Shown here: positions 29,042 to 49,720 of the stretch, one piece after another
Numbering within the stretch: position 1 is the first letter of the stretch
Layout of the letters: each line of letters begins with the position of its first letter
Assembly: GCF_900095855.1 (NCBI RefSeq)
Contig: NZ_FMIY01000002.1
Span: 1,231,322 to 1,295,321 of the forward strand
Direction: 5' to 3'
DNA: 64,000 nt
From: Megasphaera coli
GTDB taxonomy: Bacteria > Bacillota > Negativicutes > Veillonellales > Megasphaeraceae
Notes under the pieces: model-generated
Seen by the model: the letters and a program-made list of their open reading frames with translations, nothing else
Database searches by the model: none
What the model was told of the DNA's origin: nothing
Position numbers and translations under genes: made by a program

Positions 29042-29055
29042 ATCCGATACCTCCT

Positions 29056-33840: not shown

Positions 33841-33858
33841 CACACGGAGGTGTATACT

Positions 33859-35124
33859 ATGTTGGCTGTAAAGGAATTGGCACTTCAGGAAAAGGAAACG
33901 ATTATCGCCTTGCGCCGTCATTTCCATGAATATCCCGAATTATCTCAACAGGAATTTGCCACGATGGACTATATTGAAGAACAACTTCACGCATGGAATA
34001 TTCCGACTGTTCGCGTGCCCAAAGGCGGCGTTGTCGCCACTGTCGACAGCGGCAAGCCGGGTTGGACGGTTCTAGTCCGCGCCGACATCGACGCCTTGGC
34101 AATTGACGAAAAGGAAACCAACTTGACGACAAAGAAGGTCGTCCTCTCCAAAGCAAAGGGCGTCATGCACGCCTGCGGTCATGACGGCCACATGGCCATG
34201 GCCCTGACGGAAGCGAAGATTCTCGCCGCCCGTAAAAATGCCTGGGACGGCAAGGTCATCTTCATTTTTGAAGAAGCGGAAGAATTCGGCGAACGAGGCG
34301 TTTCGCCGCTGCTTCAATATTTGCACGATGAAAAAATTCATATTGACATGTGCTACGGCACACATGTCATGTGGCGACTGCCTGCAGGCAAGGTCGGCAT
34401 CGTCTACGGCACGGCCATGGCGGGCGCTTTCTTTTTTAACGTCACCATTCACGGCTGCGGCGGCCACGGTTCCCGTCCGGACATGGCATCAAGCCCGATT
34501 GAAGCCTTTGTTTCCATAGCCAATGAAGTTCGTGCCTTTCGCATGCGTGCCGTTGCCCCCGAAGAAAGCCTTACGTACTCCTTCGGCAGCGTAAACGCCG
34601 GTTCGAAACCGAACATCATTCCGTCGGAACTTTCCTTCTCCGGAACCATGCGCTGCACGCGCAACGAAGACGGCCTGGCGTTCCGTACCTTCATGAAGAC
34701 CACGCTCCCCCGTATTGCCGAAGAATACGGCTGCACTGTCGAATTTACGGAGGATCAATATATGCCGGCCGCGGTCAATACGAAAGAATGTGTTGATCTC
34801 GCCCGCCGAGCCGTCGTCACAGCCCTCGGAAAAGATGTGCTCGATGAAGATTGCCCCATGTGGATGGCTTCGGAAACGTTCGCTCTCATTGAAAGCACCT
34901 ACCCCGGTGTCCTCGTTTTCACGGGCATTCAGGACGAACATGTCGGCAGCGGCGCGCCCCATCACACACCGGAATTCGATCTGGCCGAAGACGGTCTTGT
35001 CTCCGGCGTAGGCACTGCTCTCGCTTATATTTTGACGGTACTTGAAGAAAAACCGGCCACGCCGTCTTTCAAGGCTGCCGACTTAAAGACCATGATCGAC
35101 ATGCTCGACCCGACAAAATCATAG
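33859..35124 (+). CDS. M20 family amidohydrolase
   Basis: A 421-residue metallo-amidohydrolase of the M20D/IAA-amino-acid hydrolase type. The metal ligands are visible in HACGHDGHMAM, EEAEEFGERG, YGTHVMW and GSGAPHHTPEFD. The dimerisation domain runs about residues 195-310. Such enzymes cleave N-acyl or gamma-glutamyl amides of amino acids. ATG 33859 has GGAGG eight bases upstream and is preferred over GTG 33850. It stands alone between two terminators. Confidence 0.9.
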   Translation: MLAVKELALQEKETIIALRRHFHEYPELSQQEFATMDYIEEQLHAWNIPTVRVPKGGVVATVDSGKPGWTVLVRADIDALAIDEKETNLTTKKVVLSKAKGVMHACGHDGHMAMALTEAKILAARKNAWDGKVIFIFEEAEEFGERGVSPLLQYLHDEKIHIDMCYGTHVMWRLPAGKVGIVYGTAMAGAFFFNVTIHGCGGHGSRPDMASSPIEAFVSIANEVRAFRMRAVAPEESLTYSFGSVNAGSKPNIIPSELSFSGTMRCTRNEDGLAFRTFMKTTLPRIAEEYGCTVEFTEDQYMPAAVNTKECVDLARRAVVTALGKDVLDEDCPMWMASETFALIESTYPGVLVFTGIQDEHVGSGAPHHTPEFDLAEDGLVSGVGTALAYILTVLEEKPATPSFKAADLKTMIDMLDPTKS

Positions 35125-35145
35125 TTCGTCCTTATTTTTCCATAT

Positions 35146-35181
35146 AAAAAGGCAGTCTCCTTTGCAGAGACCGCCTTTTTT
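35146..35181 (+). terminator. Intrinsic terminator after the M20 gene
   Basis: Stem AAAAAGGCaGTCTC against GAGACcGCCTTTTT with one mismatch and a seven-base loop, then T6. It also lies just behind the convergent UroD-like gene and may serve both. Confidence 0.85.
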
Positions 35182-35201
35182 GATGCACGCTCAATTTTGC
35201 T

Positions 35202-36293
35202 TTATTCCGCTTGTTTCAATCCTTTCGGATACATACCTTTTCTGGCACCTTTGCCGTAAACGGCGGCGGCATTCATGACAGCGACGAGGTTTTCCTTCGA
35301 CGTGCCTACCGGCGTCGTACAGCCCGGGCTGATTACAAAGCCGCGAGGATTGTCGCCGGCATCGCGGAGGCAGCGGACAACTTCATTTTTCATATCTTCC
35401 GGCGTACCGTTGCGCAACAAGTCGACAGGGTCGATATTGCCGATAATGCCGATTTTGTCACCGTATCGGTCTTTCAAATCCTTCATGCTTTCAATGTTGT
35501 CGACGGAAAAAGCGGAAATACCGAAGTCGACGATTTCTTCCCACCGGTCATGAGTCGTGCCGCAAATATGAATGCCCGGCTTGGAACCGTAAATCTTTTC
35601 CAGTCGTTCACAAGTCTGCTTCATGAAAGGAACTGCATATTTTTTAAACATGCGCGGCGAAAGAAGATTGCGTGCAATAATCGGCTCCGCCAGGGATGCT
35701 TTAATGCCCGCATGCTTGTACAAGCCTTCCGCACAGGCAACGACGTTGTCCGTTGCGTACTGCAGGAGCTTGTTGACTTCATCGGGCTTTTTCACCATAT
35801 CCTTCAAGAATTTTTCCGTACCGATGAGGAAGGCCGCCACGGTAAAGGGCGCACCCATACCGGTACCGATGATATGTGTCTTGCCGTATTTTTCCTGCAA
35901 GCGGTTAAAGGCTTCCAGCATAATGGGGAAACGGCCGTCCTTAGTAACGTCCATAATCTTTCTGCCGTCCAGCTCGGCATAATCCGTAATGGCCATGCCT
36001 TCTACATGAGAAACATTGTTTTCCGGCGTCACAACAGGCACGCCCAAGGCTTCCGCCACGCCGCGCAAACCGACGCCCATACCCATGTTATCGGCACCGA
36101 AATCCTCGGCAATATGCGATTCCACCTCGACCATAAGATCGGCGGAAAAGTAGTAATCCCTGTTCTGAATGCCGTAACGTAAAGGACTCGTTTCCGCCGC
36201 CGTCAGGACCGTCGGTATACGGTCCACTTCTTCGCCTGCCGCATACGCGGTCAGTCGTTCTCGCGGCGTCATTTCGGTCTTAATCAATTCCAT
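35202..36293 (-). CDS. UroD/MtaA-type methyltransferase
   Basis: A 363-residue protein of the uroporphyrinogen decarboxylase fold, in the MtaA/CmuA branch that moves methyl groups to or from a corrinoid protein. The zinc ligands of that branch are present as His-x-Cys in GIHICGTTHD and a later cysteine in SPGCTTPVGT. It lacks the N-terminal arginine pattern of true heme-pathway UroD. ATG 36293 follows AAGGAG by eight bases; GTG 36302 abuts it. It belongs by function to the corrinoid cluster but is separated from the enolase-type gene by 238 bases with a hairpin. It could be the substrate demethylase or the second methyltransferase. Confidence 0.85.
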   Translation of the reverse strand: MELIKTEMTPRERLTAYAAGEEVDRIPTVLTAAETSPLRYGIQNRDYYFSADLMVEVESHIAEDFGADNMGMGVGLRGVAEALGVPVVTPENNVSHVEGMAITDYAELDGRKIMDVTKDGRFPIMLEAFNRLQEKYGKTHIIGTGMGAPFTVAAFLIGTEKFLKDMVKKPDEVNKLLQYATDNVVACAEGLYKHAGIKASLAEPIIARNLLSPRMFKKYAVPFMKQTCERLEKIYGSKPGIHICGTTHDRWEEIVDFGISAFSVDNIESMKDLKDRYGDKIGIIGNIDPVDLLRNGTPEDMKNEVVRCLRDAGDNPRGFVISPGCTTPVGTSKENLVAVMNAAAVYGKGARKGMYPKGLKQAE

Positions 36294-36457
36294 GTCCGTC
36301 ACTCCTTAGTTATATAGAATAGTAAATTCCCTTTATGCAGTTGAAAAAACATACATGTTCACCGTCCCAATATAAACCGCTTTGCACATATATGCACCCG
36401 TTCAATTATACCATCCGCAATTAACAGCCTGCCAATAAAATAATCTTCGCAATAAGG

Positions 36458-36488
36458 CTGTATTTATTTTCATTCAAAATAAATACAG
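36458..36488. repeat. Perfect AT-rich inverted repeat
   Basis: Arms CTGTATTTATTTT and AAAATAAATACAG (13 bases each) with a five-base loop lie between the enolase-type gene and the UroD-like gene. There is no T run on the minus strand, so an operator or RNA stability element is as likely as a terminator. Confidence 0.55.
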
Positions 36489-36531
36489 GGCATACCGTCT
36501 CCATAAAAGATATTCCTTGTACAACGTATAA

Positions 36532-37713
36532 TTACTTCACTGTCGTCAATTCGCAATGTTTGAACGCATAGTCGCTCCATTCATTACCGATACCCGGAAC
36601 TTCGGGTATCGTAAAATATCCATTTTCCGGTTGATAGTCATGCACGCATAATTGCCGGTTGTACTCGTGCAGATAATATACATGGTGCTCATGAATCGTG
36701 AAATTCGGCAATACCGCCTCCAGGTGGAGTGCCGCCGGTACCAGCAAGGGACTGCAACATACATGGATTTGCACCCCTATGTCATAGGCATGTGCCATGT
36801 CGCAAACTTTCTTCGTTTCCGTAATGCCGCCGCAGGTTCCCAGGTCGGGCTGAATCATTTGAATAGAGCCGTCTTTAAAATACTGCTTATACTGCCAGCG
36901 CGTGTAAATGCGTTCGCCTTGAGAAATGGGAATACGCACATGATCATGAACGAATTTATTTACGTCCGGCGACGGCGTGCACGGTTCTTCAAACATAAAG
37001 ATATTGTATTTTTCCATTATCCGCGCCAGTTGCACCGCCCCTTGCGCATCAATATTGGAATGGTTCTCCATGATAAGATCCGTATCGTGCCCGATAGCAT
37101 CACGCACGGCGGCAACACGTTCTTCTATCATGTTCGCATACTTTGCCGGCAATAACCGCGTCGTCATTTCATGGCCGAGACGATTACCGTCTTTGTCGAA
37201 GTTGAAAAAGTCCACCTTAACGGCCGTATACCCTTCGGCAACGGCTTTTTTCGCCGCGTCAGCGTATTCCTGCGCCGATTTCAGCCCCAATCGAACAGGT
37301 CCCCAGCCGAACTGCAACTGACTTGCGTAGGCACGTAATGTATTGCGCATCTTGCCGCCGAGCAGTTTATAGAGCGGCACGTTAAAATACTTGGCCTTTA
37401 TATCCCACAAAGCGATGTCAATGGCCGAAATGGCGCCGAATATAACGGGGCCGCCGTTTTGTGCCCAAAAGGTGGATTTATACAAATCTTCCCAAATGAC
37501 TTCCGTATCCAGCGGATCTTTGCCGATAACTTTTTCGGAAAAATCCAAAAGCGCGCCGTACGCACCGTGTGAAGCAGCGCCATATGCCAATGCCGTTTCA
37601 CCGTCGCCGTAAAGTCCCTCGTCCGTATATACACGAATACCTACCGGCGTCCAAGGTTTATTGTCTTCCGCATGGGGATTAATCAACATGACATCAACCT
37701 TTGTTATTTTCAT
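36532..37713 (-). CDS. Enolase-superfamily enzyme (mandelate racemase/sugar acid dehydratase type)
   Basis: 393 residues with the capping domain (1-125), then a modified TIM barrel. Visible catalytic positions are Lys166 and Asp168 in VKVDFF, metal ligands Glu216 (ENHS), Glu242 (FEEP) and Glu267 (GER), and His317 in IHVCC. His218 next to the first ligand is the arrangement known from D-galactonate and related sugar-acid dehydratases. The substrate is not decided by the sequence. GGGAGGAG precedes the ATG. Its place between the ASKHA activator and a UroD-like protein suggests it feeds or uses the same substrate. Confidence 0.85.
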   Translation of the reverse strand: MKITKVDVMLINPHAEDNKPWTPVGIRVYTDEGLYGDGETALAYGAASHGAYGALLDFSEKVIGKDPLDTEVIWEDLYKSTFWAQNGGPVIFGAISAIDIALWDIKAKYFNVPLYKLLGGKMRNTLRAYASQLQFGWGPVRLGLKSAQEYADAAKKAVAEGYTAVKVDFFNFDKDGNRLGHEMTTRLLPAKYANMIEERVAAVRDAIGHDTDLIMENHSNIDAQGAVQLARIMEKYNIFMFEEPCTPSPDVNKFVHDHVRIPISQGERIYTRWQYKQYFKDGSIQMIQPDLGTCGGITETKKVCDMAHAYDIGVQIHVCCSPLLVPAALHLEAVLPNFTIHEHHVYYLHEYNRQLCVHDYQPENGYFTIPEVPGIGNEWSDYAFKHCELTTVK

Positions 37714-37817
37714 TGGTCTCCTCCCGTCTTATGAAATGAGCAGGACCGATGCGGCCTGCACCGTATGCTATCCTTACTTATCAAGCGTCACATAACTGCC
37801 TTGGAACAGTTTGGCAA

Positions 37818-39395
37818 TTAAAACAACAGGCACTTGGCAAAAAGCCGTTCGTAGCCTTCACTGTTGCTGAGCTCAATATAATTTATGTACGCAGCCAGAT
37901 GTTCCACGTCCTGCTTTGCCCGTTCCGATAACAACGTTGCCATGGCACCGGTTTTTGCGGAGTTACCGGCATACACCAGTTTTTCCGGTGCAACCGGCGG
38001 CAATAAGCCGATTTCCAGCAGAGACTCGGCAGGCAAATGGGCACCGAATTGCCCTGCAATCAATATGCGGTTCAAGTCCTCCGCGCAAAGGCCGGCTTGC
38101 TTCATGAGCACTTCAATGCCGGAACGAATGGCGCCTTTCGCCAGTTGTACCTGCCGAATATCTCCTTGCGTGACGACAAGCTCTTTGCCGTCTTTTCCTT
38201 CACCGAGCACGACTTCCCGTTTGGTTCCGCAGTACCGAAGTATGGTACGCCTGTAATCGCCTGCCGCAAAGTCTTCGGGCTTGGCAAAAACTCCCCGCTT
38301 TGTGACCATACCCGTACGCACGAGCTCACGAACTACGGCGAGAATGCCGCTGCCGCACAAACCGGCAGGCTTTCCGCCGCCGATGACGGCCGCAGAAATC
38401 CCTTTTTTATCAATATGCACATCCTCTACGGCGCCTGCGGCCGCGCGCATACCGGATGTAATATTCATTCCTTCCAGTGCCGGCCCGGCCGCACAGGAGC
38501 AGGAGTACATGCGGTGCTTTGTTGCCAAGACAAGTTCTCCGTTTGTGCCGATATCGATAAAAAGGACGTTGTCCGCCGCATTTTTTAAATCGCAAATATG
38601 TACGCCCGCCACAATATCGGCACCGATATAGGCCGAAACGGACGGCAATAAATACACAAGAGCATCATCTTTACAATGAAGCCCCAAGTCACAAGCTTTA
38701 TATCGCCGCGCTTCCACAAAAACAGGCTTGTACGGAGCCTTGCCGATGGGCCGCGCGTCCACGGCGGCGAGCATATGGAGCATCGTACAGTTGGCAGCTA
38801 TGTCAATTTCGATAATGTCCGGCGCCGAAATACCGGCCTGCCTGCAAACATCGGCCATAAGCTCATTCAGGCCACCTATAATCGCCCTCTGCAGATTGGC
38901 AATACCGGCATCGCCACTTTCCGTCTCGTACGTAATGCGCGTCAGCACATCGAGGCCGTAGCGCTTCTGCGGATTGATCATGGCCGCCGTCGCTGCTTCC
39001 GCACCGCTTCGTAAATCGGTCAGAGACATGACTACCGTCGTCGTGCCGATATCTACGGCCAAACCGTATCCGTCCCGCCGTATTTCGGGCACAAGCTTCG
39101 GCATGAAGCCGTCCGTTGTAAAGACATGCTCCGTTTCTTCTTCTCCCGTCTCTACAACAAGTTCTTCGCCCTGTCCGTAAGTCATGCAGGCCAGGCGTAT
39201 GCCCTTTTGCAGCTCTTCCTCCGTCAGCAGATGTCGTTCCGGTGCGGTCATCTCGTTTACAGCACCGTCTACGACCCGAATCTTACATTTACCGCACGTC
39301 CCCTTGCCGTTGCAACTGTTCGCAAGCGGTACATTTTCGACAAGGAGCCGCTCCATAACGGAACGGCTCCTGTCTCCTTTCACGGTTATTTTCAT
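37818..39395 (-). CDS. ASKHA-domain corrinoid activator (RamA-like, DUF4445)
   Basis: 525 residues. Residues 1-85 form a [2Fe-2S] ferredoxin domain with ligands Cys28, Cys34, Cys37 and Cys70. The remainder is an actin-like ATPase fold (AVDIGTTTVVMSL, LFIDIGTNGELVLA, GLCGSGILAVV, AGQFGAHLP). Proteins of this build reduce inactive Co(II) corrinoid to Co(I) using ATP. It follows the corrinoid protein gene after three bases. The C-terminus is complete (EGYERLFAKCLLF). Confidence 0.9.
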   Translation of the reverse strand: MKITVKGDRSRSVMERLLVENVPLANSCNGKGTCGKCKIRVVDGAVNEMTAPERHLLTEEELQKGIRLACMTYGQGEELVVETGEEETEHVFTTDGFMPKLVPEIRRDGYGLAVDIGTTTVVMSLTDLRSGAEAATAAMINPQKRYGLDVLTRITYETESGDAGIANLQRAIIGGLNELMADVCRQAGISAPDIIEIDIAANCTMLHMLAAVDARPIGKAPYKPVFVEARRYKACDLGLHCKDDALVYLLPSVSAYIGADIVAGVHICDLKNAADNVLFIDIGTNGELVLATKHRMYSCSCAAGPALEGMNITSGMRAAAGAVEDVHIDKKGISAAVIGGGKPAGLCGSGILAVVRELVRTGMVTKRGVFAKPEDFAAGDYRRTILRYCGTKREVVLGEGKDGKELVVTQGDIRQVQLAKGAIRSGIEVLMKQAGLCAEDLNRILIAGQFGAHLPAESLLEIGLLPPVAPEKLVYAGNSAKTGAMATLLSERAKQDVEHLAAYINYIELSNSEGYERLFAKCLLF

Positions 39396-39398
39396 GCC

Positions 39399-40049
39399 TT
39401 AACCGATTCCCAACAAACGATCCGCCTGTTTGACCGCATCCACGGCGTTGGGCGAAAATGTATCGGCGCCGATTTTATCGGCAAAAACCTGGGTAATCGG
39501 CGCGCCGCCTATCATGACCTTCACGTTATCACGTAAGCCCCGTTCTTTCAGCATGTCAATGACCGTACCCATGCCTTCCATGGTGGTCGTCATGAGCGTG
39601 GACATGCACAGTACGTCGGCATGTTCCTTTTCCACCGTATCGACAAAATTTTGCAGCGGCACATCTTTACCGAGGTCAATAACCCGATACCCGCCCGTTT
39701 CCATCATCGTCTTGACGAGGTTCTTGCCGATATCGTGCGTATCTCCTTCAATAACGCCGATAACGGCCGTCCGCACTTCCGATTCCGCTTTTTGTTCCAA
39801 ATGAGGCTTCAGCAAATCAAGCCCGGCATACATGGCATCGGCACACAAAAGGATGTCGGACACAAAGTATTCTTCCTCCTCGTACAGTCTGCCGGCCCGG
39901 CTCATGCCGTCGACGAGACCTTCCATAATGCCGTCCAGCGCTTCGTAACCGTCGTTAATATATTCTTCACAGGCGGGAATAATATCTTCGTCATCCATTT
40001 CAAATACATCGTCCGACATGCGCTGCAATAACTCTGTTTTTTCACTCAT
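39399..40049 (-). CDS. Corrinoid-binding methyl-carrier protein
   Basis: A 216-residue B12-binding protein of the MtaC/MttC type. Residues 1-90 form the helical cap (GLVDGMSRAGRLYEEEEYFVSDIL). Residues 92-213 form the Rossmann-like cobalamin domain with the lower axial ligand motif GDTHDIGKN, STLMTTTM and the glycine-rich GGAPIT. It carries a methyl group between two methyltransferases. It sits between the short UroD-like protein and its reductive activator, separated by three bases on either side. Confidence 0.94.
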   Translation of the reverse strand: MSEKTELLQRMSDDVFEMDDEDIIPACEEYINDGYEALDGIMEGLVDGMSRAGRLYEEEEYFVSDILLCADAMYAGLDLLKPHLEQKAESEVRTAVIGVIEGDTHDIGKNLVKTMMETGGYRVIDLGKDVPLQNFVDTVEKEHADVLCMSTLMTTTMEGMGTVIDMLKERGLRDNVKVMIGGAPITQVFADKIGADTFSPNAVDAVKQADRLLGIG

Positions 40050-40052
40050 CTT

Positions 40053-40940
40053 TTATTCCCCTTCCTCTTTTAAACGGATTTCATATATCTTATCTGCCGC
40101 AACAACGGATTTTGCATTCTTAATACACATCTGCCCCATAAAGCCGACCTTGCCGACGCCGTACAGCCAGCCGTCTTCGTATGTGAGCCCGGGCCTATCG
40201 TCAAGACCCAAGGGAACGTATTTGCCGGTTCCCGTACCGTCCAGAGCGTAAGCCGTCTTCGGACAAAGGAGGATCAGTGCCTTGCGGCCGATCATATCGT
40301 CAAGGGAACGAAGAAACGGTGCTACCCGTGAAACCGTGTAGTCCTGCAGCACTTTCGGTCCCATGATATTGAGTCCCGCAACGGAATCGGCGTAACTGAT
40401 AATCTTAACTCCTGCCGCCACTGCCGCTTCTATGTATGTAAACAAGTTTTTTTCTATCTTGCCGAATACCTGTGCCATCAGCTCCGGCTTACGCCGCAGC
40501 CCTTTGAACACGTATTTCAGATCGACGAGTCCGTTTAAAAGCGTAATGGGACCACACACTTCCAGAATAACCGTTTCTCCCTCGTCGGCCAGGCGCTTGC
40601 AGGCCTTGAGCACTTCCGCCACACGCCCTTGGGCGACATCCATGTCGGGCAGGCTCAGTACATCTTCCAAGGAAGTGCAAACGTATTCACCCGTCCGCGG
40701 TCCGGCCTGGACACTGCCGTAATTGACAACGGCTCCTAAGGCCTCCGCTTCGACAACATGATCAAAGGGAAGATACACGACCTGATCGTGCAGGCCTTCT
40801 TTTACGGTACGGGCCAATTTCACCATGGAGTCAGCCCGTTGATACACGTCCGGTACGGCAAGGCCGCATTTTTCTAAAAGGCCTGCGACGGAATCCTCCT
40901 TTGAACCGTAGGTGCAAGGGTAATCTTTTATTTCTCCCAC
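40053..40940 (-). CDS. Short UroD/MtaA-like protein
   Basis: A 295-residue relative of MtaA/CmuA, shorter than the 340-370 residues usual in the family. Barrel elements are recognisable (VVYLPFDHVVEAEALG, LEVCGPITLLNG, ISYADSVAGLNIMGP). The His-x-Cys zinc site expected before the sixth strand reads LLCPKTA here, so the histidine is missing while a cysteine remains; a second cysteine is in GQMCIKNA. It starts with GTG, eight bases after AGGAGATGG. Its role may be methyl transfer with an altered metal site, or a structural partner. It is translated with the corrinoid protein. Confidence 0.78.
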   Translation of the reverse strand: MGEIKDYPCTYGSKEDSVAGLLEKCGLAVPDVYQRADSMVKLARTVKEGLHDQVVYLPFDHVVEAEALGAVVNYGSVQAGPRTGEYVCTSLEDVLSLPDMDVAQGRVAEVLKACKRLADEGETVILEVCGPITLLNGLVDLKYVFKGLRRKPELMAQVFGKIEKNLFTYIEAAVAAGVKIISYADSVAGLNIMGPKVLQDYTVSRVAPFLRSLDDMIGRKALILLCPKTAYALDGTGTGKYVPLGLDDRPGLTYEDGWLYGVGKVGFMGQMCIKNAKSVVAADKIYEIRLKEEGE

Positions 40941-40951
40941 ATTGCCATCTC

Positions 40952-42103
40952 CTAAAGCATTTCAATGAACGCCGCCAAGCGCGTGTTAAGCTGTCCCACA
41001 TCCGTCTTGGAATAATCCGTTTCAATATAAATATAAGGAATGCCTTTCGTTTCCGTTACAAAGCGGTGAATCGATTTGGATTCCACGCTGTACGTATGAC
41101 AAGCCTGGAGTACCATTTCAACAACACCGTCTACGTGATATTCGTCGATCATTGAGCCGAGGAGCTCGAAGCGGTTGTCGTTCGGCGTCATGACGGAGCA
41201 GCCGATACCGAGATACCGTTCGGCAACGGCTTTACAAATATCGTCCGTATCTTCGTCGACGAGCCGTTCAATAGCCTTGGCGCCCGAACAATTTTCATAG
41301 GAAACGACAACGCCGCCGTTATCTTCAACGGCCTGAATAACCTTTTCCGTCGCGCCGCCCATGGGACAGCCTGTAATCAAGATGCGCGGCCGCTTGTCCA
41401 GGCGCTTGCCTGCAGCATATTCGGCTTCGATCTTTTCCGTCAGCCCGTTCAATTCGGCGGCGAGTACCGTACGGTCCAGTTTAAATGTACTGCCGTAAAG
41501 AACCTTAAATAAGTCGTGGCCCGAAATAGGTGCCGGATCGTGCTTCATAATGTGATAGAGTCCTTGCAGGGCACGGCGAACGCCGTTTTCCGTGTGAACT
41601 GCCCGGCGTATGTCTTGGTCCGTAATGGTAACCCCGAATTTTTCTTCAAGGCGCTCTTTCAGTCGCCGCACGGAATCGGTCCAAAAGGCGAGTCCCCGTT
41701 CGCCCTGCGACTGCGGCAGTTCCATGACATACACATCTTTAAACTGTCCCATCAATTCGTACATCTTCTTTTTTCCGTCACACGTCGTTTCACTGATGAT
41801 GAGATCGGAAAAGTAAAAATAAGGACACTTGTCCGTTTTTGCAAAGCCGTAGCTGGCCTTGATCAGAGGACAGAGGTTTTTCGGTAAATCCCTTTCGGCC
41901 ACTTCAATCGTTTCGTCCGACATGGAGCAGAGGCTGACAGTCGCCGCCCCCATGGCCATAGGCAATTCCTTCGGGAAGTACGTACAGTACGAGCCGATAA
42001 CGGGAATGCCCTTGTCTTTTGCTTCTTTCACGGCGAGAAAGGAGTTTTTCCTCTGTTCCGCAAATTCATCAAATACTTGCGGCAATTTTTTTATAAGTTC
42101 CAT
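40952..42103 (-). CDS. yjiM: Double-cubane-cluster reductase (YjiM/HgdB family)
   Basis: 383 residues, the same length as E. coli YjiM as I recall it, which supports the ATG at 42103 after GGGGGAA over the upstream ATG at 42151. Family cysteines are seen in SYCTYFPKELP, NLCPLIKASYG, ETTCDGKKKM, ENCSGAK, IGCSVMTPND and QACHTYSVES. Proteins of this group receive electrons from an ATP-driven activase and reduce difficult substrates. True 2-hydroxyacyl-CoA dehydratases have two different subunits, and only one is present here, which fits the single-subunit reductase type. The substrate is unknown. Confidence 0.87.
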   Translation of the reverse strand: MELIKKLPQVFDEFAEQRKNSFLAVKEAKDKGIPVIGSYCTYFPKELPMAMGAATVSLCSMSDETIEVAERDLPKNLCPLIKASYGFAKTDKCPYFYFSDLIISETTCDGKKKMYELMGQFKDVYVMELPQSQGERGLAFWTDSVRRLKERLEEKFGVTITDQDIRRAVHTENGVRRALQGLYHIMKHDPAPISGHDLFKVLYGSTFKLDRTVLAAELNGLTEKIEAEYAAGKRLDKRPRILITGCPMGGATEKVIQAVEDNGGVVVSYENCSGAKAIERLVDEDTDDICKAVAERYLGIGCSVMTPNDNRFELLGSMIDEYHVDGVVEMVLQACHTYSVESKSIHRFVTETKGIPYIYIETDYSKTDVGQLNTRLAAFIEML

Positions 42104-42205
42104 GTCATGTTCCCCCAATTTCAAGCGGCATTGCTCTAAAGAATACGTCATACCGTCAATATGTCGGCTTTTTTAAGTATAACAATAGTAATAATGCCCC
42201 ATCAA

Positions 42206-42254
42206 AAAGAGTATTGATTTGCAATAAAAGTGTCTGCATTTATCAATACTCTTT
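42206..42254 (-). terminator. Terminator-like hairpin inside the corrinoid operon
   Basis: A perfect 13-base stem (AAAGAGTATTGAT at 42206 with its complement at 42242) is followed on the minus strand by TTTTTG. It lies between the activase stop and the reductase start, so it may reduce read-through from activase into the rest of the operon. Confidence 0.75.
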
Positions 42255-42274
42255 ATGAAAACTCCTTATTCAAT

Positions 42275-43054
42275 TTATCTGTTTTCTCCCGCGTCCACAG
42301 CAAGAGCCGCCGCTCCGATGGCACCGGCAAAGCGTGCCAAGTGATGAGAGTGTACGAGCCGGCCGAAAGACTCGCTCAAAAGCTCCAGGAAGTACTCGTC
42401 ATCGCAGAGGCCGCCGGTCAGGAAAATCGGTTTCTCCCCGTCCGTCAGCTTGGCGTATTCTTGGCGCACCTTTTTTACGACCGACTGCAATACACCCCAG
42501 GCGATATTCGGCTTTGACGTTCCCCTGCCGATAAGAGAGACGATCTCCGATTCGGCAAAGACCGTACACATAGCACTGATCTGCAGCTTCTCCGTATGTT
42601 CGCGCGCAATATTATCCAGCTCCGTCAGAGATACGTTGAGGCGATTGGCCATAATTTCCAAAAACTTGCCCGTCCCGGCGGAGCACTTATCATTCATGTA
42701 AAACTCCATGACCTTGCCGTTGCGACAGGCAATAACCTTCGTATCCTGACCGCCGATATCGACGATGTTAAAGACAGTCTCGTCATAAAGCATGGAAGCT
42801 CCCTTGGCGTGACACGTAATTTCAGTTACCTTTTTCCGAGCACCTTCGACGGCTTGCCGGCCGTAACCGGTAGAAATACAATACATATCGTCAAAGTTAT
42901 AGCCCTTACCGGCCAATTTTTTCTTAATATCCTTTAATGCTTCCAAGCTGCTCCAGCCCGTAGGAATAACAAAGGTGTCCAAAATCTCTTTATCGGCGTT
43001 CATGAGAGCCGTCTTGCTGCACGTTGAACCGATGTCAATGCCTATATATTCCAT
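42275..43054 (-). CDS. yjiL: ATP-dependent activase (YjiL/HgdC family)
   Basis: A 259-residue ASKHA-fold ATPase. GIDIGSTCSKTALM forms the phosphate-1 loop and VDIGGQDTKVI the phosphate-2 loop. Cys124 (DKCSAGTGKF) and Cys163 (AMCTVFAESE) bind the [4Fe-4S] cluster that bridges the homodimer. It injects electrons into the double-cubane reductase on ATP hydrolysis. It is first in the cluster and is divergent from the LysR gene. SD AAGGAG precedes the ATG. Confidence 0.93.
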   Translation of the reverse strand: MEYIGIDIGSTCSKTALMNADKEILDTFVIPTGWSSLEALKDIKKKLAGKGYNFDDMYCISTGYGRQAVEGARKKVTEITCHAKGASMLYDETVFNIVDIGGQDTKVIACRNGKVMEFYMNDKCSAGTGKFLEIMANRLNVSLTELDNIAREHTEKLQISAMCTVFAESEIVSLIGRGTSKPNIAWGVLQSVVKKVRQEYAKLTDGEKPIFLTGGLCDDEYFLELLSESFGRLVHSHHLARFAGAIGAAALAVDAGENR

Positions 43055-43101
43055 GCTGTTTCTCCTTATAATAAATAACCCCTGTTCTTCTCTTCATAAC
43101 A

Positions 43102-43129
43102 ATTATACATGATGAGTAAAGTATTCGAA
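43102..43129 (-). promoter_or_regulatory. Candidate promoter of the corrinoid cluster
   Basis: On the minus strand TTCGAA, a 16-base spacer and TATAAT lie about 50 bases upstream of the activase start, between it and the divergent LysR gene. The -35 is weak, as expected for an activator-dependent promoter. Confidence 0.35.
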
Positions 43130-43239
43130 TTTTGCAAGTTATATCGGTAAGTTTATTATTATTGATATTTGTTCTATTTGTTTTTCTTATGAATGTATGC
43201 TATGATGACTTCGTCTCAATTATCAGAAGGAGTATATTC

Positions 43240-44148
43240 ATGGAATTAAAGCAACTCGAATCATTTGTCGCCGTCATCAAGTACGGCAGTTTTACTAAGG
43301 CCGCTCACGTCCTCTATATGTCGCAGCCTTCTATCAGTACGCACATACGGGCCTTGGAAAAACGACTCGATACTCCCCTTATTATTCGCACGACCAAGCA
43401 GATTCGCATTACCCCGCGCGGCCGGGAACTTTACGACATGGCAACGGCAATGCTGAAATTGCGGGATGACTTATTCAGCAAGTGGCAGCACGAAGATTCT
43501 CACGAAATAATCATCAGTGCTTCAACAATTCCGTCTATTTATTTGTTGCCCCAAATATTGCGCGGCTTCCGAAAAATTTATCCGGACATCCCCTTTACAA
43601 TTACGCAGGATGTAAGCGGCAATGTCATTACCTCTCTTCTCAAAGGTCAGACACAAGTAGGTTTTACGGGCATGAAAATCGACGAAGACTCATTAGAGTT
43701 TTTACCTGTCGCCTTCGACAAAATGGTTGTCATTACGCCGAACACCCCTGCCTTTCGGGCATGGCGGTCCCGAGAAAACGCAGCCGTCCAAATTATTTCC
43801 AAGTGCCCCCTTATTTTACGCGATAAAGGCAGCGGCAGTAAGTCTCATATTGACACTATTTTCGAAAAACTCCGCCTGACACCGGAAAATCTGCATATTA
43901 CGGCACGGCTTAACGAACCGGAAGGCATTAAAAATCTCGTCATCAACCAGGTCGGCGTTTCCGTCATTTCTGAAGCGGCCGTAACGGCCGCCGTCAAAGA
44001 CGGTACGCTCCTCAAATTCGAATTGCCGAAAGAATTGGCCCTGCGCCGACTTTACATGATATATCTCAAACACGGCACGCAGTCCAGTCATGTTAAACAA
44101 TTTATTCATTATGTCAAATCACTGGCATGGGAAAAGAAGGACCAATAG
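43240..44148 (+). CDS. LysR family transcriptional regulator
   Basis: A 302-residue LTTR. The N-terminal helix-turn-helix is MELKQLESFVAVIKYGSFTKAA with SQPSISTHIRALEKRL. The effector domain runs from residue 90. I start at the ATG preceded by AAGGAG. The upstream frame encodes only a hydrophobic non-coding-like stretch. Divergence from the activase gene, with 185 bases between, marks it as the likely activator of the corrinoid cluster. It resembles CysB/CbbR-like regulators found next to sulfur or C1 genes, but the inducer is unknown. Confidence 0.9.
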   Translation: MELKQLESFVAVIKYGSFTKAAHVLYMSQPSISTHIRALEKRLDTPLIIRTTKQIRITPRGRELYDMATAMLKLRDDLFSKWQHEDSHEIIISASTIPSIYLLPQILRGFRKIYPDIPFTITQDVSGNVITSLLKGQTQVGFTGMKIDEDSLEFLPVAFDKMVVITPNTPAFRAWRSRENAAVQIISKCPLILRDKGSGSKSHIDTIFEKLRLTPENLHITARLNEPEGIKNLVINQVGVSVISEAAVTAAVKDGTLLKFELPKELALRRLYMIYLKHGTQSSHVKQFIHYVKSLAWEKKDQ

Positions 44149-44182
44149 AAAAGAGCTTCCGGCCGGAAGCTCTTTTCTATTG
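44143..44182. terminator. Bidirectional terminator, 40-base perfect palindrome
   Basis: Arms of 20 bases meet with no spacer (CAATAGAAAAGAGCTTCCGG and its complement). The palindrome contains the stop codons of both the LysR gene and the convergent lipoprotein gene, and has A/T runs at both ends. Confidence 0.85.
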
Positions 44183-44734
44183 CAGGCCTGACGGATTAAC
44201 GGATGTGACCTGACCCTTGCAAAGGCCGACACGAATAAACGAACCGTCGGCGTTGCTCCATTCATATTCTCTATGTATGTGCCCCATGGTTGTGCTTTCG
44301 AGCACCAAAGTCCCGTCATAGGCCATGACGTCTTTCACTTCGTCGTAGGTCATACCTACATGGATGGCGCTGAGCGTATCCTTGGATACTACATGCCGCT
44401 CTTTGTCGTAACGATGATAGCCCGTAATTTCCTTCCACACGGCTTTGTCATTTTTAAGCTTCACGGCAATTTGTGCGCCTTCCGGCCCATCCCAGTCATA
44501 CATCACAACTTTTTCATCGTCGTATACTTTTTCTTCTTTTACTGTACCGTCTCTTCCGAAAGCCGTCTTGAGGGCGGCGTAATCCTCATCCATAGCGATG
44601 TCCGTAAATTTTTCATAAAAGGCCGTTACTTCCGGCGAAGCTTCCGCCACGGGCGCATCACTGCAGCCGGCGGCAAAAAGAGCAAAACACAAGAGCATAA
44701 GAACGGATAATACAGATTTTCCCAATCGCAACAT
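44177..44734 (-). CDS. Lipoprotein, SmpA/DUF3862-like
   Basis: 185 residues with a lipoprotein signal (FALFAAGCSD, cysteine near residue 24). The second half (DTLSAIHVGMTYDEVKDVMAYDGTL) matches the SmpA/BamE-like fold seen in DUF3862 proteins, where a HVGMTYDEV motif is usual. The first half has a similar unit (EKFTDIAMDEDYAALKTAFG), which hints at two tandem copies. The function is unknown, perhaps envelope assembly. Single gene. Confidence 0.72.
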   Translation of the reverse strand: MLRLGKSVLSVLMLLCFALFAAGCSDAPVAEASPEVTAFYEKFTDIAMDEDYAALKTAFGRDGTVKEEKVYDDEKVVMYDWDGPEGAQIAVKLKNDKAVWKEITGYHRYDKERHVVSKDTLSAIHVGMTYDEVKDVMAYDGTLVLESTTMGHIHREYEWSNADGSFIRVGLCKGQVTSVNPSGLQ

Positions 44735-44832
44735 AGCGGTTCTCCTTACATAACAATATAGACTTTAATGTATTTTCCAGTTTATTTTATACTAAACGGA
44801 TGACATATAAAAGGAAAATATATTACCGCTTC

Positions 44833-46311
44833 TCAATCTTCTGCCGAAAAAACCGTTCTCGGCTCATCCTGCGGTTCTTCAATGGTTTTAACGAAATATA
44901 TATGATCGGCAAATTTGTCCTTGTACCGCCACTTACAATAGGCACCGAATGCCGCACCCAGCACACTCCAGCCCAAAACCATGGTCCATTCCTGCAAAAC
45001 AAGGTCCGATCCCGAACCAGGAATGATGTACATAAGAAGCATAAATCCCGACAGAAGAATGGCCATTATCCCGACAACCCTGTACGGCCCGACCTTATAA
45101 GGCCGTTCCATATCCGGTTCTTTCATGCGCAGGACAAGAAATGAAACGGAGACGATAAAATAAGCCAGAACACAACCGAAATTGCCGGCATTGACAACCC
45201 AAAGAAGCATCTTTTTACCGAAGAAAACGGCGAGCATCGTTACAATCCCCATGAGTACCAGAGCATTGACAGGCGTCTTATAGACCGGATGCAGCCTGGC
45301 AAAGGCCGGCGGAATCATATGGGCGCAGGCCATGGAGTACATAGCGCGGCTGCCGCCTATAAGGAAAGAATTCCAGCTCGTAACGATACCGCAGATGCCA
45401 CCTACAATGAGAACCTTTGCCATCATGTCGCTGTTAAATGCAATAGCCATCGCATCGGCCGTAACCAGACCGCCGACACTGTTCATGGACGAAAAGATAG
45501 CCCTGCTGTCCATTAAATACCCTACGGCCCCGATGACGAAAGAGTAAAAGGCAACGGCAAGGACGATGGAGAGAACGAGAATTCGGCCGATATTTTTCAG
45601 CGAGGCCGCTATCTCCTCGGCCGCTTGGGGGATAACGTTGAAACCGATGAAAAAGAACGGCGTCATGACGGCAACGGCAAGTGTATTTTTTACCGTTTCC
45701 GCCGGCGTCGAACCGAGAAAAAGATGCCCTTCCAAGTTAGCTGCGCTGCCGGTAAGAGCCGAAGCGACAATGAGAAGAATACCTATGGCACCGATGATTA
45801 AGGTGAGAACGGTCTGCAGGACAGCCGCCGTTTTGGTCCCGACTATATTGATATACGTAATAGCCGCAACGAAAACAAGGGCCAGGATCAGCCATGTCGC
45901 ATAGATATCGAAACCGCCGACGGAATAGAGATAATACTGCAAAAAGTCGGGATATAAATATGCAAAAATCGTCGGCAGCGCACAAGCTTCAAAACAAACA
46001 ACGCCCGTATAGCCGAAGATAATAGCCCATGTACAAATAAAGGAACCGAGCTTTCCGAAAGCCCTGTAACTGAAGACGTGCTCGCCGCCGCTTTGGGGCA
46101 TTGCCGTCGTCAATTCCGCGTAAGTAAGGCCGACAAAGAAAATCGTAATGCCGCCGATAACAAAACCGAGCATGGCGCCGACTACCCCTCCCTGCATGAT
46201 CCAGTCGCCTGTCGAGACAACCCAGGCCCACCCGATCATGGCGCCGAAAGCCAATACCAATATATCCCATAAATTAAGTACTTTATTAAACTCCGAAGTT
46301 TTTCGTGCCAT
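44833..46311 (-). CDS. APC family amino acid permease
   Basis: A 492-residue secondary transporter with about twelve membrane segments. The first helix holds GAMIGWAWVVSTGDW and the later GFNVIPQAAEEIAASLKNI is typical for APC transporters of the YfnA/EAT kind. ATG 46311 has GAGAGG nine bases upstream. Possible cargo is an amino acid, ethanolamine or a polyamine. Single gene facing the flavodiiron operon's end. Confidence 0.88.
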   Translation of the reverse strand: MARKTSEFNKVLNLWDILVLAFGAMIGWAWVVSTGDWIMQGGVVGAMLGFVIGGITIFFVGLTYAELTTAMPQSGGEHVFSYRAFGKLGSFICTWAIIFGYTGVVCFEACALPTIFAYLYPDFLQYYLYSVGGFDIYATWLILALVFVAAITYINIVGTKTAAVLQTVLTLIIGAIGILLIVASALTGSAANLEGHLFLGSTPAETVKNTLAVAVMTPFFFIGFNVIPQAAEEIAASLKNIGRILVLSIVLAVAFYSFVIGAVGYLMDSRAIFSSMNSVGGLVTADAMAIAFNSDMMAKVLIVGGICGIVTSWNSFLIGGSRAMYSMACAHMIPPAFARLHPVYKTPVNALVLMGIVTMLAVFFGKKMLLWVVNAGNFGCVLAYFIVSVSFLVLRMKEPDMERPYKVGPYRVVGIMAILLSGFMLLMYIIPGSGSDLVLQEWTMVLGWSVLGAAFGAYCKWRYKDKFADHIYFVKTIEEPQDEPRTVFSAED

Positions 46312-46549: not shown

Positions 46550-47773
46550 TTATTTTGCCGTTTCCGTCAGGGAATCCACTATGGCCTGTGCCATAGCATT
46601 CAGTTCCGTTTCTTTGTCGGCATGAAGTGCAGATGCCATGGTAACGCGTTCATTTAAAACGAGCATATTCTTCAAACTATTATCGACAAATTGCTGTATC
46701 AAGTCTCCGGACTTCACGGCCCATGAGCCGTTTTCCATGATGGCGACCGTACGGTTTTGTACATGCAGCGCTTTCATATGTTCAAGGAAATCCAGCATAA
46801 CCGGATAGATCCCCAAATTATATGTCACCGATGCCAGGACCAGGTGTGAGTATTTGAAGGTCAGCGAAATCAGCTCGGACACGTGCGTCGTCGATACGTC
46901 GCAAACGCGGACGTTCGTCATTCCCGTTTCACAGAGGCGGCTTGCCAACTTCTGCGCAGCCCCTTCCGTATTACCGTACATGGATGCATAGACGATGAGA
47001 ACGCCCTTTTCTTCCGGCTCGTACGTGCTCCAATGCTGGTATTTGTCAAGAAGATAGGCGAAGTCGGAGCGCCAGACCGGGCCGTGCAAGGGACAAATAA
47101 ACTTGATCTTGTCCAGGACGGCTGCAGCCTTGCCGAGGAGGAATTGGACATGGGGTCCGTATTTGCCGACAATATTTGTATAGTACCGCCGTGCTTCATC
47201 AATCCAGTCGCGGTCAAAGTTTACTTCATCCGCAAAAAGTTTTCCGTCCAAGGCGATGAATGAACCGAAAGCATCGGCTGAAAAGAGAGCCCCGTTCGTG
47301 AGATCAAGTGTAACCATCGCTTCGGGCCAGTGTACCATCGGCGCGGCGACAAAGGTCACTTTGTGCTTGCCGAAAGATTGCACGTCCCCTTCCTTAACTT
47401 CGATGAGTTCCTGTTTGTCGACAGAGAAGCCGAACTGCCGCATGAACATGAAGGATTTTTCCGTACTGATAATCTTTACCTTCGGATAGCGGAGCAAAAT
47501 TTCTTCAATGCTCGCACCGTGATCGGGTTCCATATGATTGATGACGAGATAATCAAGATCTCTGCCGTTTAATACGTATTCAATATTTTCAAGCAGTTGC
47601 CGGCATGCGCCCCAATCGACCGTGTCAAAAAGAACCGTGCTTTTATCGAGCAATAAGTAGGCGTTATATGAAACACCTAAGGGGATGGGATGAATATTTT
47701 CAAACAGATGGGTCCGATGATCGTTGGCCCCGACCCAGTAAAGGTCTTCCGTTATGTTACGTACGCAATACAT
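46550..47773 (-). CDS. Flavodiiron protein (FprA type)
   Basis: A 407-residue A-type flavoprotein that reduces O2 to water or NO to N2O. The metallo-beta-lactamase domain carries all diiron ligands: NHMEPDHGAS, PMVHWPEAM, FSADAFG and CPLHGPVWR. The C-terminal flavodoxin domain (from about residue 255) has the FMN loop YASMYGNTEG. Electrons normally come from rubredoxin. A rubredoxin domain occurs in the next gene upstream (33 bases away on the same strand), which is suggestive. Confidence 0.95.
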   Translation of the reverse strand: MYCVRNITEDLYWVGANDHRTHLFENIHPIPLGVSYNAYLLLDKSTVLFDTVDWGACRQLLENIEYVLNGRDLDYLVINHMEPDHGASIEEILLRYPKVKIISTEKSFMFMRQFGFSVDKQELIEVKEGDVQSFGKHKVTFVAAPMVHWPEAMVTLDLTNGALFSADAFGSFIALDGKLFADEVNFDRDWIDEARRYYTNIVGKYGPHVQFLLGKAAAVLDKIKFICPLHGPVWRSDFAYLLDKYQHWSTYEPEEKGVLIVYASMYGNTEGAAQKLASRLCETGMTNVRVCDVSTTHVSELISLTFKYSHLVLASVTYNLGIYPVMLDFLEHMKALHVQNRTVAIMENGSWAVKSGDLIQQFVDNSLKNMLVLNERVTMASALHADKETELNAMAQAIVDSLTETAK

Positions 47774-47806: not shown

Positions 47807-49720
47807 TTATTCTCTAATAAAAGCGGCCTTTTCTTCGGCACATTCCGGGCAGACCCAATCTTCCGGCAAGGCACTGAACAAGGTTCCCGGTGCAACATCC
47901 GCCTCCTCATCGCCGCGTTCGGGAATATACTCATAACCACAGCCGCTGCAGACATATACGGGACCGATGGGCTCCGCTTTCGGCGGCAGGGGCCGTTTCA
48001 TCTTGACCATAGGCGGTGCCGCTTTCTTTTCACCTCTGCCGAGAGCGTCCGCCAGAAGCGGCAGTATTTCTCCGACATCGCCGACAATACCGTAGTCGCA
48101 GTTCTTAAAAATCGGCGCATTTCTATTCTTGTTGACGGCCACAATTGTAGAGGCATCCTTAATGCCTTTCAAATGCTGCTTGGCGCCGGAAATACCACAG
48201 GCAATATAAAGGTTACCCGTAAACTTTTGTCCCGACATGCCCACATACCGTTCCAAAGGAATATACTTGAGCGTTTCCGCAACGGGGCGTGACGAGCCGA
48301 TGGCGGCGCCGGCGGCGGCTGCGAGGTCTTCAACGAGTTTCATATTTTCTTTATCACCGATGCCCTTGCCGGCGGAGACGACGCGTTCAGCCTGCGCAAT
48401 AGGCGTATCTGCAGGAATACCGACGGAAAAATCATAGCCGTCTTTGACGAGGGCCGCGACCAGTTCGGCCACCTTGGCTTTACTGTCGCCTTCCGTAATG
48501 ATTTTGCCCTTGCGGATGCCCGTAACGGGAGCCGCCTTTTTAGCGGCGCCCGGCCGTGCTTCATGACCGGAATTGCCGAGCTTGCCCAGAAGATGAGCCG
48601 CAATGACGAGGCGCTGAATTTCGTTGGTTCCTTCGTAAATCGTCGTAATCTTCGCATCTCTGTAAGCCCGTTCCACATCCATTCCTTTGAGGAAGCCGGA
48701 ACCGCCGAAAATCTGCAGCGCATCGTTCGTGATTTCCATAGCCGAATCGGAAGCGTACATTTTTGCCATAGCGGCCTCCATGCCGTAGGCCGCATGTTGC
48801 TCCTTCAGTTCGGCCGCCGAGTAAACGAGATAGCGCGAAGCACGCAGCTTCGTAGCCATGTCGGCGAGCTTAAAAGACACGCCCTGATGTACGCCGATGG
48901 GAGCGCCGAACTGGTGCCGTTCTTTAGCGTAATCCAAAGCGCTTTCATAAGCGCCCTGAGCAATGCCCAAGGCTTGAGACGCAATGCCGATGCGGCCGCC
49001 GTCCAAGGTCGCCATGGCGATTTTAAAGCCTTGTCCTTCTTTGCCGAGAAGGTTTTCCTTCGGTACTTTCACGTCATTAAAAATGAGTTCCGCCGTCGAC
49101 GACGAGCGAATGCCCAATTTATCGTAATGGTCACCGAATTCAAAACCCTGCCGCTCTTTTTCCACAATGAAGGCCGATATGCCCTTTGTGCCGATGTCAG
49201 GTGTCGTAACGGCAAAGACAACGTAGATATCCGCCTTCGGTGCATTCGTAATAAAGATTTTGCCGCCGTTCAGGAGATAATAGTCGCCCTTATCGACAGC
49301 CGTCGTTTCCGTACCGCCCGCATCGGATCCGGCGTTTTCTTCGGTCAAACCGAAGGCACCCAATTTCTCGCCCTTCGCCAAAGGCACCAAGTATTTTTTC
49401 TTCTGCTCTTCCGTCCCGAAGGCCGCAATAGGATACGATCCGAGGGATACGTGAGCCGACAGGATGACGCCTATGCCGCCGTCGACGCGGGACAATTCTT
49501 CGACGGCAATAGCATAGCTGAGTATGTCCCTGCCGGCGCCGCCATATTTCTCTTCATAAGGCAGGCCGAGCCAGCCGTTGGCGGCCATTTTCTTCACCAC
49601 GTCATCGGGAAACTCATTGTTTTGATCCAGGCTGAAAGCAATGGGCCGTATTTCCTTTTCCGCAAAAGTCCGAATTTCTTTGCGAAGCGCTTCATGCGCT
49701 TCCGTCGTTTGAAATAACAT
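47807..49720 (-). CDS. Acyl-CoA dehydrogenase / ETF-alpha / rubredoxin fusion
   Basis: 637 residues with three modules. Residues 1-380 are a complete acyl-CoA dehydrogenase (LTEENAGSDAGGTET, catalytic glutamate in IYEGTNEIQR). Residues about 405-570 resemble an ETF alpha FAD-binding part (GGAEKIG-type region ERVVSAGKGIGDKEN, GSSRPVAETLKYIP, CGISGAKQHLKGIK). The C-terminal 50 residues are rubredoxin with CSGCGY and CPEC iron ligands. The fusion should allow electron transfer between flavins and a rubredoxin iron, but ETF beta is not in the window. An Rrf2-type gene lies three bases upstream. Confidence 0.92.
   Translation of the reverse strand: MLFQTTEAHEALRKEIRTFAEKEIRPIAFSLDQNNEFPDDVVKKMAANGWLGLPYEEKYGGAGRDILSYAIAVEELSRVDGGIGVILSAHVSLGSYPIAAFGTEEQKKKYLVPLAKGEKLGAFGLTEENAGSDAGGTETTAVDKGDYYLLNGGKIFITNAPKADIYVVFAVTTPDIGTKGISAFIVEKERQGFEFGDHYDKLGIRSSSTAELIFNDVKVPKENLLGKEGQGFKIAMATLDGGRIGIASQALGIAQGAYESALDYAKERHQFGAPIGVHQGVSFKLADMATKLRASRYLVYSAAELKEQHAAYGMEAAMAKMYASDSAMEITNDALQIFGGSGFLKGMDVERAYRDAKITTIYEGTNEIQRLVIAAHLLGKLGNSGHEARPGAAKKAAPVTGIRKGKIITEGDSKAKVAELVAALVKDGYDFSVGIPADTPIAQAERVVSAGKGIGDKENMKLVEDLAAAAGAAIGSSRPVAETLKYIPLERYVGMSGQKFTGNLYIACGISGAKQHLKGIKDASTIVAVNKNRNAPIFKNCDYGIVGDVGEILPLLADALGRGEKKAAPPMVKMKRPLPPKAEPIGPVYVCSGCGYEYIPERGDEEADVAPGTLFSALPEDWVCPECAEEKAAFIRE

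Follow-up and report, generated by a model that had tools for sequence, protein, structure and literature searches.

A reduced mlp gene cluster in Megasphaera coli with a probable role in the demethylation of methylated selenium compounds

The stretch of DNA analysed here (the window; 64,000 nt) belongs to Megasphaera coli and contains an operon of seven minus-strand genes with a divergent LysR regulator. This operon represents a reduced form of the mlp gene cluster (MGC), a class of corrinoid-dependent methyl-transfer loci defined by Kountz & Balskus 2023, where 367 clusters are given (PMC10418091). Its probable function is the stripping of methyl groups from methylated selenium compounds, with the selenium being reused by the host. 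An earlier note on this DNA had proposed a corrinoid system for methyl transfer that includes a double-cubane reductase, a proposal borne out by the family models and by the match to the MGC. Selenium is favoured because of the sulfur/selenium-type zinc site, the regulator model, the genome content and the gene order in relatives. It fits better than the methoxylated substrates, with methyl-sulfur compounds as the main rival.

All eight genes of the earlier note were recovered at the same coordinates and on the same strands, and every family it named is backed by Pfam or NCBIfam models. Reading down the minus strand, the operon comprises the YjiL-type ATP-dependent activase (42275–43054; TIGR00241, 232 bits against a cut-off of 125; PF01869), presumed to be the reductase of the double-cubane cluster protein (DCCP). 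This is followed by the DCCP itself, or YjiM (40952–42151), a short UroD of 295 residues (40053–40940), the corrinoid carrier protein (39399–40049), a RACo-type ATP-dependent corrinoid activase (37818–39395), a mandelate-racemase/enolase-type acid dehydratase or racemase (36532–37713) and a long UroD methyltransferase of 366 residues (35202–36302). The successive gaps are 123, 11, 3, 3, 104 and 229 bp; the DCCP, short UroD, corrinoid and RACo genes form a tight pack of four, and the enolase-type and long UroD genes lie behind longer gaps. The LysR gene occupies the plus strand (43240–44148). Its open reading frame (ORF) was listed from a TTG at 43132, and the true start is probably the ATG at 43240, as the matches to the family models begin at residue 37. 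A pattern scan detected no promoter-like or terminator-like site in the two longer gaps (104 and 229 bp). The scan says little, because the site counts over the 10-kb stretch (34900–44900) are near chance, with 17 promoter-like sites against 12.1 expected and 15 terminator-like sites against 11.9.

The long UroD (PF01208, 235 bits) is placed by a tree and by its alignment with MtaA (PDB 4ay7), in which its HIC and PGC motifs match. Its predicted zinc ligands, His245-Cys247-Cys328, constitute the full His-Cys-Cys site of S/Se-methyltransferases. In the short UroD (PF01208; tree, motif table and family alignment), the zinc-motif histidine is replaced by Leu224, and Cys226 and Cys272 are retained. 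The short UroDs of the compared clusters form a separate family of 288–308 residues, in which the two cysteines are kept in 15/15 rows of the family alignment and the zinc histidine is replaced in seven of the 15, including the window. The loss of a third zinc ligand, as read from a global alignment, was dropped given the second cysteine in all of these rows. An AlphaFold model of the short UroD (three sequences) has a mean pLDDT of 65 and falls below 50 at residues 250–283, the region that holds Cys272. Foldseek with this model returned MtaA 4ay7 as the top match (E 3e-10, TM 0.53); the identity of 22% in that row is not a full-length figure, the MGC bound for a UroD being >25% identity to a characterised coenzyme M (CoM) methyltransferase (PMC10418091). 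The host genome (1.71 Mb, two contigs, rated 90% complete) contains two UroD matches only, one Mlp2-like and one Mlp1-like.

The corrinoid protein has the two-domain B12 architecture (PF02607 and PF02310) with a DTHDIG motif at residue 103, and scores 206 bits to TIGR02370, just under the cut-off of 215. The corrinoid activase carries an N-terminal 2Fe-2S domain (Fer2), a RACo middle domain and a RACo C-terminal domain (PF00111, PF17651, PF14574), and matches PDB 3zyy at 3e-89. The earlier note had named it a RamA-like activator; the activator role stands and the RamA label gives way to a RACo type, as AcsV is the best curated model (405 bits, cut-off 800) ahead of RamA (104 bits, cut-off 500), both under cut-off. 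The DCCP passes its curated double-cubane model, NF040772, with 533 bits against a cut-off of 350.

Among the components named in the MGC paper are selR, methionine transporters and a dicubane cluster protein with its reductase (PMC10418091). The claim that no described system unites corrinoid proteins and UroD-like methyltransferases with YjiLM is thereby overturned. As in an MGC, the genes run in one direction: the seven minus-strand genes have no divergent gene between them, and the LysR gene lies outside. The largest distance between core genes, RACo to long UroD spanning the enolase-type gene, is 1515 bp, within the permitted 2 kb. No tetrahydrofolate methylase was found within 20 kb: PF00809 occurs in the host genome only at C1:758649 and C1:268674, so none is linked, and no pterin-binding or MtrH match was found in the 40 window proteins scanned, a subset of the ORFs. 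The hallmark of O-demethylase systems, a linked methyl-corrinoid:tetrahydrofolate methyltransferase, is accordingly not seen. The zinc ligands follow the type 1 pattern of His-Cys-Cys apart from several Mlp1, and the host possesses the selenium machinery of a selenium-type MGC (SelD, SelB and SelA, all above cut-off). In all, four MGC criteria hold for the operon.

The relatives were retrieved with the short UroD as query, and its presence in them is thus by design. Matches were found in 2/61 genomes of the same order, in 64/380 genomes of the class at E<=0.001 (seven of these at E<=1e-49) and in 8/398 of a phylum sample at E<=1e-30, the latter including the host and one class genome. A single-sequence scan of further genome contigs gave Anaeroglobus geminatus F0357, a same-genus genome (G015), as its sole match; its cluster is L007. 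Gene content was compared across 20 class-sample stretches of <=20 kb and six taken from beyond the class. Five more surround enolase relatives, one surrounds a second DCCP, and A. geminatus and Acetoanaerobium noterae complete the set. The last was the single record returned by a protein search of a plasmid collection (NZ_CP154629, where it is unannotated; taken as L112), and a nucleotide search of the same collection with the operon gave no match. The MGC label was given to 14 clusters (the window, L007, L037–L041 and L112–L118), and 15 stretches (L042–L056) were set apart for their MtmB/pyrrolysine genes or a more distant short UroD, a split made before the trees. The MtmB/pyrrolysine genes of L047 and L051 were checked against models, and those of the others by BLAST kinship.

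Among the 14 labelled clusters, a corrinoid ORF is present in all, a RACo gene inside the stretch in 13 (not L040) and an Mlp2-like UroD in 13 (not L116). A third UroD, marked by an [SA]PACG motif, occurs in 10 (not in the window, L007, L040 or L113), and DCCP with YjiL in six (window, L007, L039, L041, L115 and L117); the absences in L113 and L115 are weak evidence because some contigs are short. The activase measures 525 residues in the window, L007 and L113, and 556–666 in the other ten labelled loci having one. Conservation of the gene order beyond one strain, on which the earlier note had staked its proposal, is seen for the core and not for the enolase-type gene in the genomes searched. 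In the corrinoid tree (46 rows, without L007 and L041), the window protein groups with every one of the 12 MGC rows and with 10 of the 34 others in a 22-row set (100/99); therefore this kind of corrinoid protein also occurs in some of the stretches set apart. In the RACo tree (28 rows), the window protein lies within a seven-row set (98/96) of MGC rows only, and the RACo proteins of L115 and L117 are long-branched and separate from the main MGC group.

The C. ljungdahlii MGC has the order Mlp1-Mlp2-corrinoid-Mlp3-Ram (PMC10418091). L037, L038 and A. noterae L112 have the order short UroD, long UroD, corrinoid, third UroD and RACo, and because the two orders match, the short UroD would be Mlp1, the long Mlp2 and the third Mlp3. 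Mlp3 is the kind that scores best to MtbA/MtaA, and a missing zinc histidine is reported only in several Mlp1 (PMC10418091). The third UroD of L038, the only member scanned (414 bits to NF004889, cut-off 244), is the best of its three to the MtbA/MtaA models, which supports the Mlp3 label, and the missing zinc histidine of the short UroD in the window supports the Mlp1 label. In the tree as drawn, members of the third kind are not united in a single supported clade.

The closest cluster, that of A. geminatus, encodes, within a single operon, two short/long UroD pairs that have diverged (L007 5404–7404 and 12588–14603). Its first short UroD lacks the zinc histidine and is 69% identical to that of the window; the second retains it and is 37% identical. 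MetN-MetI-MetQ genes lie between RACo and the second UroD pair, at the position held by the enolase-type gene in the window, and MetNIQ also resides inside the L113 cluster (genome G454). The flanks, an M20 amidohydrolase and an amino-acid permease, are common to the window and A. geminatus.

Several lines of evidence tie this machinery to selenium. The LysR protein passes NF040786, the selenium metabolism-associated LysR model (281 bits, cut-off 250), as does its A. geminatus orthologue (284 bits). Passages of PMC5322559 link a LysR subfamily to selenium genes and list CoA-type activase and 2-hydroxyglutaryl-CoA-dehydratase-type genes among its STRING partners. According to part of PMC11097638, a UroD operon of M. 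maripaludis rises by 5.6–7.8 log2 upon selenium depletion. The host SelD (380 bits) has one in-frame TGA within its SCSGU motif and lies ~46 kb from the operon, adjoining a YedE selenium transporter (514 bits, cut-off 200). Two genes of the cysteine-desulfurase family occupy the same 20 kb, both below the selenocysteine-lyase cut-off. SelB (332 bits) and SelA (595 bits) are present; tRNA-Sec was not reported in the window or L110, the only stretches searched.

Direct linkage is seen in the relatives. One 29-kb contig (G144, C32) unites SelA and SelB (by model), DCCP and the MGC, with SelD, YjiL, YedE, the Mlps and RACo recognized by BLAST kinship, together with a corrinoid ORF. In G353, the MGC has a YedE-linked set at its flank, and its contig also carries SelA and SelB. 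Across the class, SelB was found at E<=1e-75, a threshold that fragments could escape, in 44/380 genomes. It is present in all seven with a short-UroD match at E<=1e-49 (Fisher p 2e-7), a value that overstates independence because the genomes are related.

The following scheme is proposed. The Zn(His-Cys-Cys) site of the long, Mlp2-like UroD would pass a methyl group from a methylated selenium compound to the Co(I) corrinoid protein. Candidate substrates are methylselenol, dimethyl selenide or a compound derived from selenomethionine or Se-methylselenocysteine. The methyl group may then move to a thiol acceptor (sulfide, homocysteine or other); Mlp2 could serve both half-reactions itself, or the short Mlp1 could assist. 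Co(II) would be re-reduced by the RACo protein in an ATP-dependent manner. The DCCP and its activase could supply another low-potential reductant driven by ATP, with oxidised selenium species as a possible target. The released selenide would feed the TGA-encoded SelD, and the divergent LysR is predicted to turn the operon on under selenium shortage.

A number of observations weigh against this scheme. No Mlp3 was found in the 90% complete host genome, and a type 1 MGC is one that encodes Mlp2 and Mlp3 (PMC10418091), so the operon falls outside that definition. The Mlp numbering is tentative, coming from gene order and model scores. The seven genomes with a close short UroD stem from four families. 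In family f24, SelB is present in none of the 32 genomes with any short-UroD match (E<=1e-75; the chance of none is ~0.016). Parts of MetNIQ and an M20 gene are near the cluster in L047 and L048, two of the seven f24 stretches, and in L050 of family f5. These f24 and f5 clusters without SelB imply that related machinery can be selenium-free. Conversely, SelB is above cut-off in 10 of the 13 other same-genus genomes, all without the cluster, and selenium use therefore does not need it. The MetNIQ of the A. geminatus cluster fits methionine or sulfur as well as selenium.

These points lead to the strongest rival, a possible though clearly less likely alternative, in which the same machinery handles methyl-sulfur. 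It would take methyl groups from methionine, methylthio-compounds or methanethiol, serving either methionine salvage or the provision of sulfur, and the selenium genes would be coincidental. The MetNIQ genes inside the A. geminatus and L113 clusters (MetQ checked by model) agree with this, as does the M20 amidohydrolase beside the window and A. geminatus clusters. ClMlp2, which methylates selenide from methylcobalamin, also acted on sulfide, at a 4.3-fold slower rate, and MarHDK genes are named for sulfur-type MGCs (PMC10418091). Opposed to it are the LysR score above the selenium cut-off, the presence of the DCCP pair, and the linkage to SelA, SelB and SelD in G144 and to SelA and SelB in G353.

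Among the stretches set apart, L047, L048 and L050 are distant short-UroD clusters with M20, MetNIQ parts and Cys/Met pyridoxal phosphate enzymes (the last by BLAST kinship) in genomes without SelB at the threshold; they likely represent a sulfur-type branch and lend the methyl-sulfur rival further weight. Seven others (L042–L044, L049, L051, L054 and L056) have MtmB as two ORFs split by a stop, PylS/PylB and a short-UroD-like gene. PylS/PylB were identified by model in L051 and by BLAST kinship elsewhere; PylB was not seen in L049. By their gene content, these are pyrrolysine methylamine clusters with a putative Mlp1-like member.

An improbable variant holds that the double-cubane pair alone is the selenium part, with the corrinoid genes running another methyl reaction and merely sharing the operon. 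A. geminatus has a second DCCP gene adjoining SelA (L124, on contig C15 of G015, 9247–10518), with no UroD match on that contig, and DCCP with YjiL occurs in just six of the 14 clusters. Nevertheless, both halves are kept together in four of the 12 other labelled loci (L039, L041 and L115, with L117 on the opposite strand).

The enolase-type gene (PF13378 and PF02746) is regarded as accessory; it is placed apart from the methyl-transfer core and is not conserved in the cluster. At E<=1e-40 it has no match in A. geminatus, and none is labelled in the other MGC loci; in the class, 47/380 genomes have a match at 1e-40, host included. The nearest relatives are 62, 60 and 59% identical (G129, G357 and G064). 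Twenty relative loci (L119–L123 and L139–L153; main copies 46–62% identical) were examined, and UroD, corrinoid or RACo genes were within five genes of the enolase in none. The order NMT1-type binding protein, permease, ATPase and enolase recurs in nine (L122, L139, L140, L141, L144, L147, L148, L150 and L151), and genes of one BLAST group, an MFS member in L120, adjoin the enolase in five (L120, L142, L143, L149 and L152). An SDF symporter adjoins it in L123 and MetNIQ in L119. In L149, MetQ-like and M20 genes lie three and four genes away, and L121, L145, L146 and L153 have other neighbours. Because of these neighbours, the enzyme may be read as mostly a transporter-linked acid-modifying enzyme. 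It appears to have been inserted into the operon in the lineage of the window; the GC content of 0.486, compared with 0.498–0.542 in the other six genes, gives no strong sign of recent arrival. The arrival of enolase and MetNIQ as one module, based on the L119 neighbours, was dropped, since the MetNIQ of A. geminatus is at least as close to L113 as to L119. A literature search found no pairing of an enolase-type enzyme with corrinoid proteins, in keeping with that part of the earlier note, and neither “enolase” nor “mandelate” occurs in the main text of PMC10418091, although such a pairing may be in print elsewhere.

A highly speculative role for this gene is that of a cofactor-free C-Se/C-S lyase in series with the corrinoid system. 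Abstraction of the alpha-proton would release methylselenol (or methanethiol) from a 3-methylseleno (or methylthio) acid that derives from Se-methylselenocysteine or from a relative of methionine; Mlp2 would then strip the methyl group to give selenide. If true, this would be a reaction new to the enolase superfamily and would give organic selenium a new way of entry. The methoxylated or methylated acid substrate of the earlier note, taken here with one sugar acid or aromatic acid serving both the enolase and the UroD, could draw on the kinship to acid-sugar dehydratases, the position between activase and methyltransferase and the established corrinoid/UroD O-demethylases (PMC10418091), and is very unlikely given the His-Cys-Cys site of the long UroD, the absence of an enolase match at E<=1e-40 in A. 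geminatus and of a labelled one in the other MGC loci, and the absence of a linked tetrahydrofolate methylase from the PF00809 matches and the 40 window proteins scanned; the zinc site goes with sulfur or selenium, and the regulator, genome content and gene order of the relatives point to selenium.

Outside the operon, the flanking M20 amidohydrolase (33850–35124, plus strand; TIGR01891, 268 bits, cut-off 154) has a 78% identical neighbour in L007, and its link to the methyl-transfer system is uncertain. A 637-residue protein (47807–49720, minus strand) fuses acyl-CoA dehydrogenase, an ETF-alpha FAD domain and rubredoxin, and adjoins an ODP-family protein (46550–47773). Two neighbouring chromate-transporter family genes occupy 28469–29637 on the minus strand.

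The demethylation of selenium compounds as proposed would place a selenium-salvage machine, described but biochemically little-tested, in the Megasphaera/Anaeroglobus group. As a natural minimal version, with one full-zinc-site UroD and no Mlp3, it could separate the roles of the Mlps. The close clusters with selenocysteine machinery and the more distant f24 clusters without SelB also offer a testable functional split between selenium and sulfur.

The components resemble several known systems. The enolase-type protein aligns nearly end to end with D-galactonate/mannonate dehydratase-like mandelate-racemase enzymes (PDB 2ox4, 2o56, 4e6m and 2gl5), but is under the cut-off of every named model, and these four solved relatives are themselves only “putative”. 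The long UroD shares nearly its whole length and the three zinc ligands with the MtaA/MtbA methylcobamide:CoM methyltransferases (4ay7), although it reaches only 131 and 117 bits to NF040654 and NF041608 (cut-offs 400 and 600). The DCCP is akin to the double-cubane protein of PDB 6eno/7yyl over residues 44–399 (phmmer 3e-79), again with an activase gene adjoining, and by an eye count eight of its ten cysteines in that region align with cysteines of 6eno; an Fe8S9 double cubane is the cofactor that it would bind. The SdmABC system of Methanococcus was reportedly described by Niess & Klein in 2004. This dimethyl-selenide system likewise uses a corrinoid protein and UroD methyltransferases to free selenide, as passages of PMC11097638 and PMC10418091 state; it differs in being archaeal, and these passages do not name a DCCP pair and activase. 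From the type 1 MGC, the operon differs in having no Mlp3, a 525-residue activase, an Mlp1 without the zinc histidine and an enolase-type gene inside. It shares with it two MtaA-like UroDs, a corrinoid protein and a Ram/RACE activase in one direction, the DCCP with its activase, the selenium LysR, surroundings in which no tetrahydrofolate methylase was found and, in the A. geminatus cluster, the methionine transporter.

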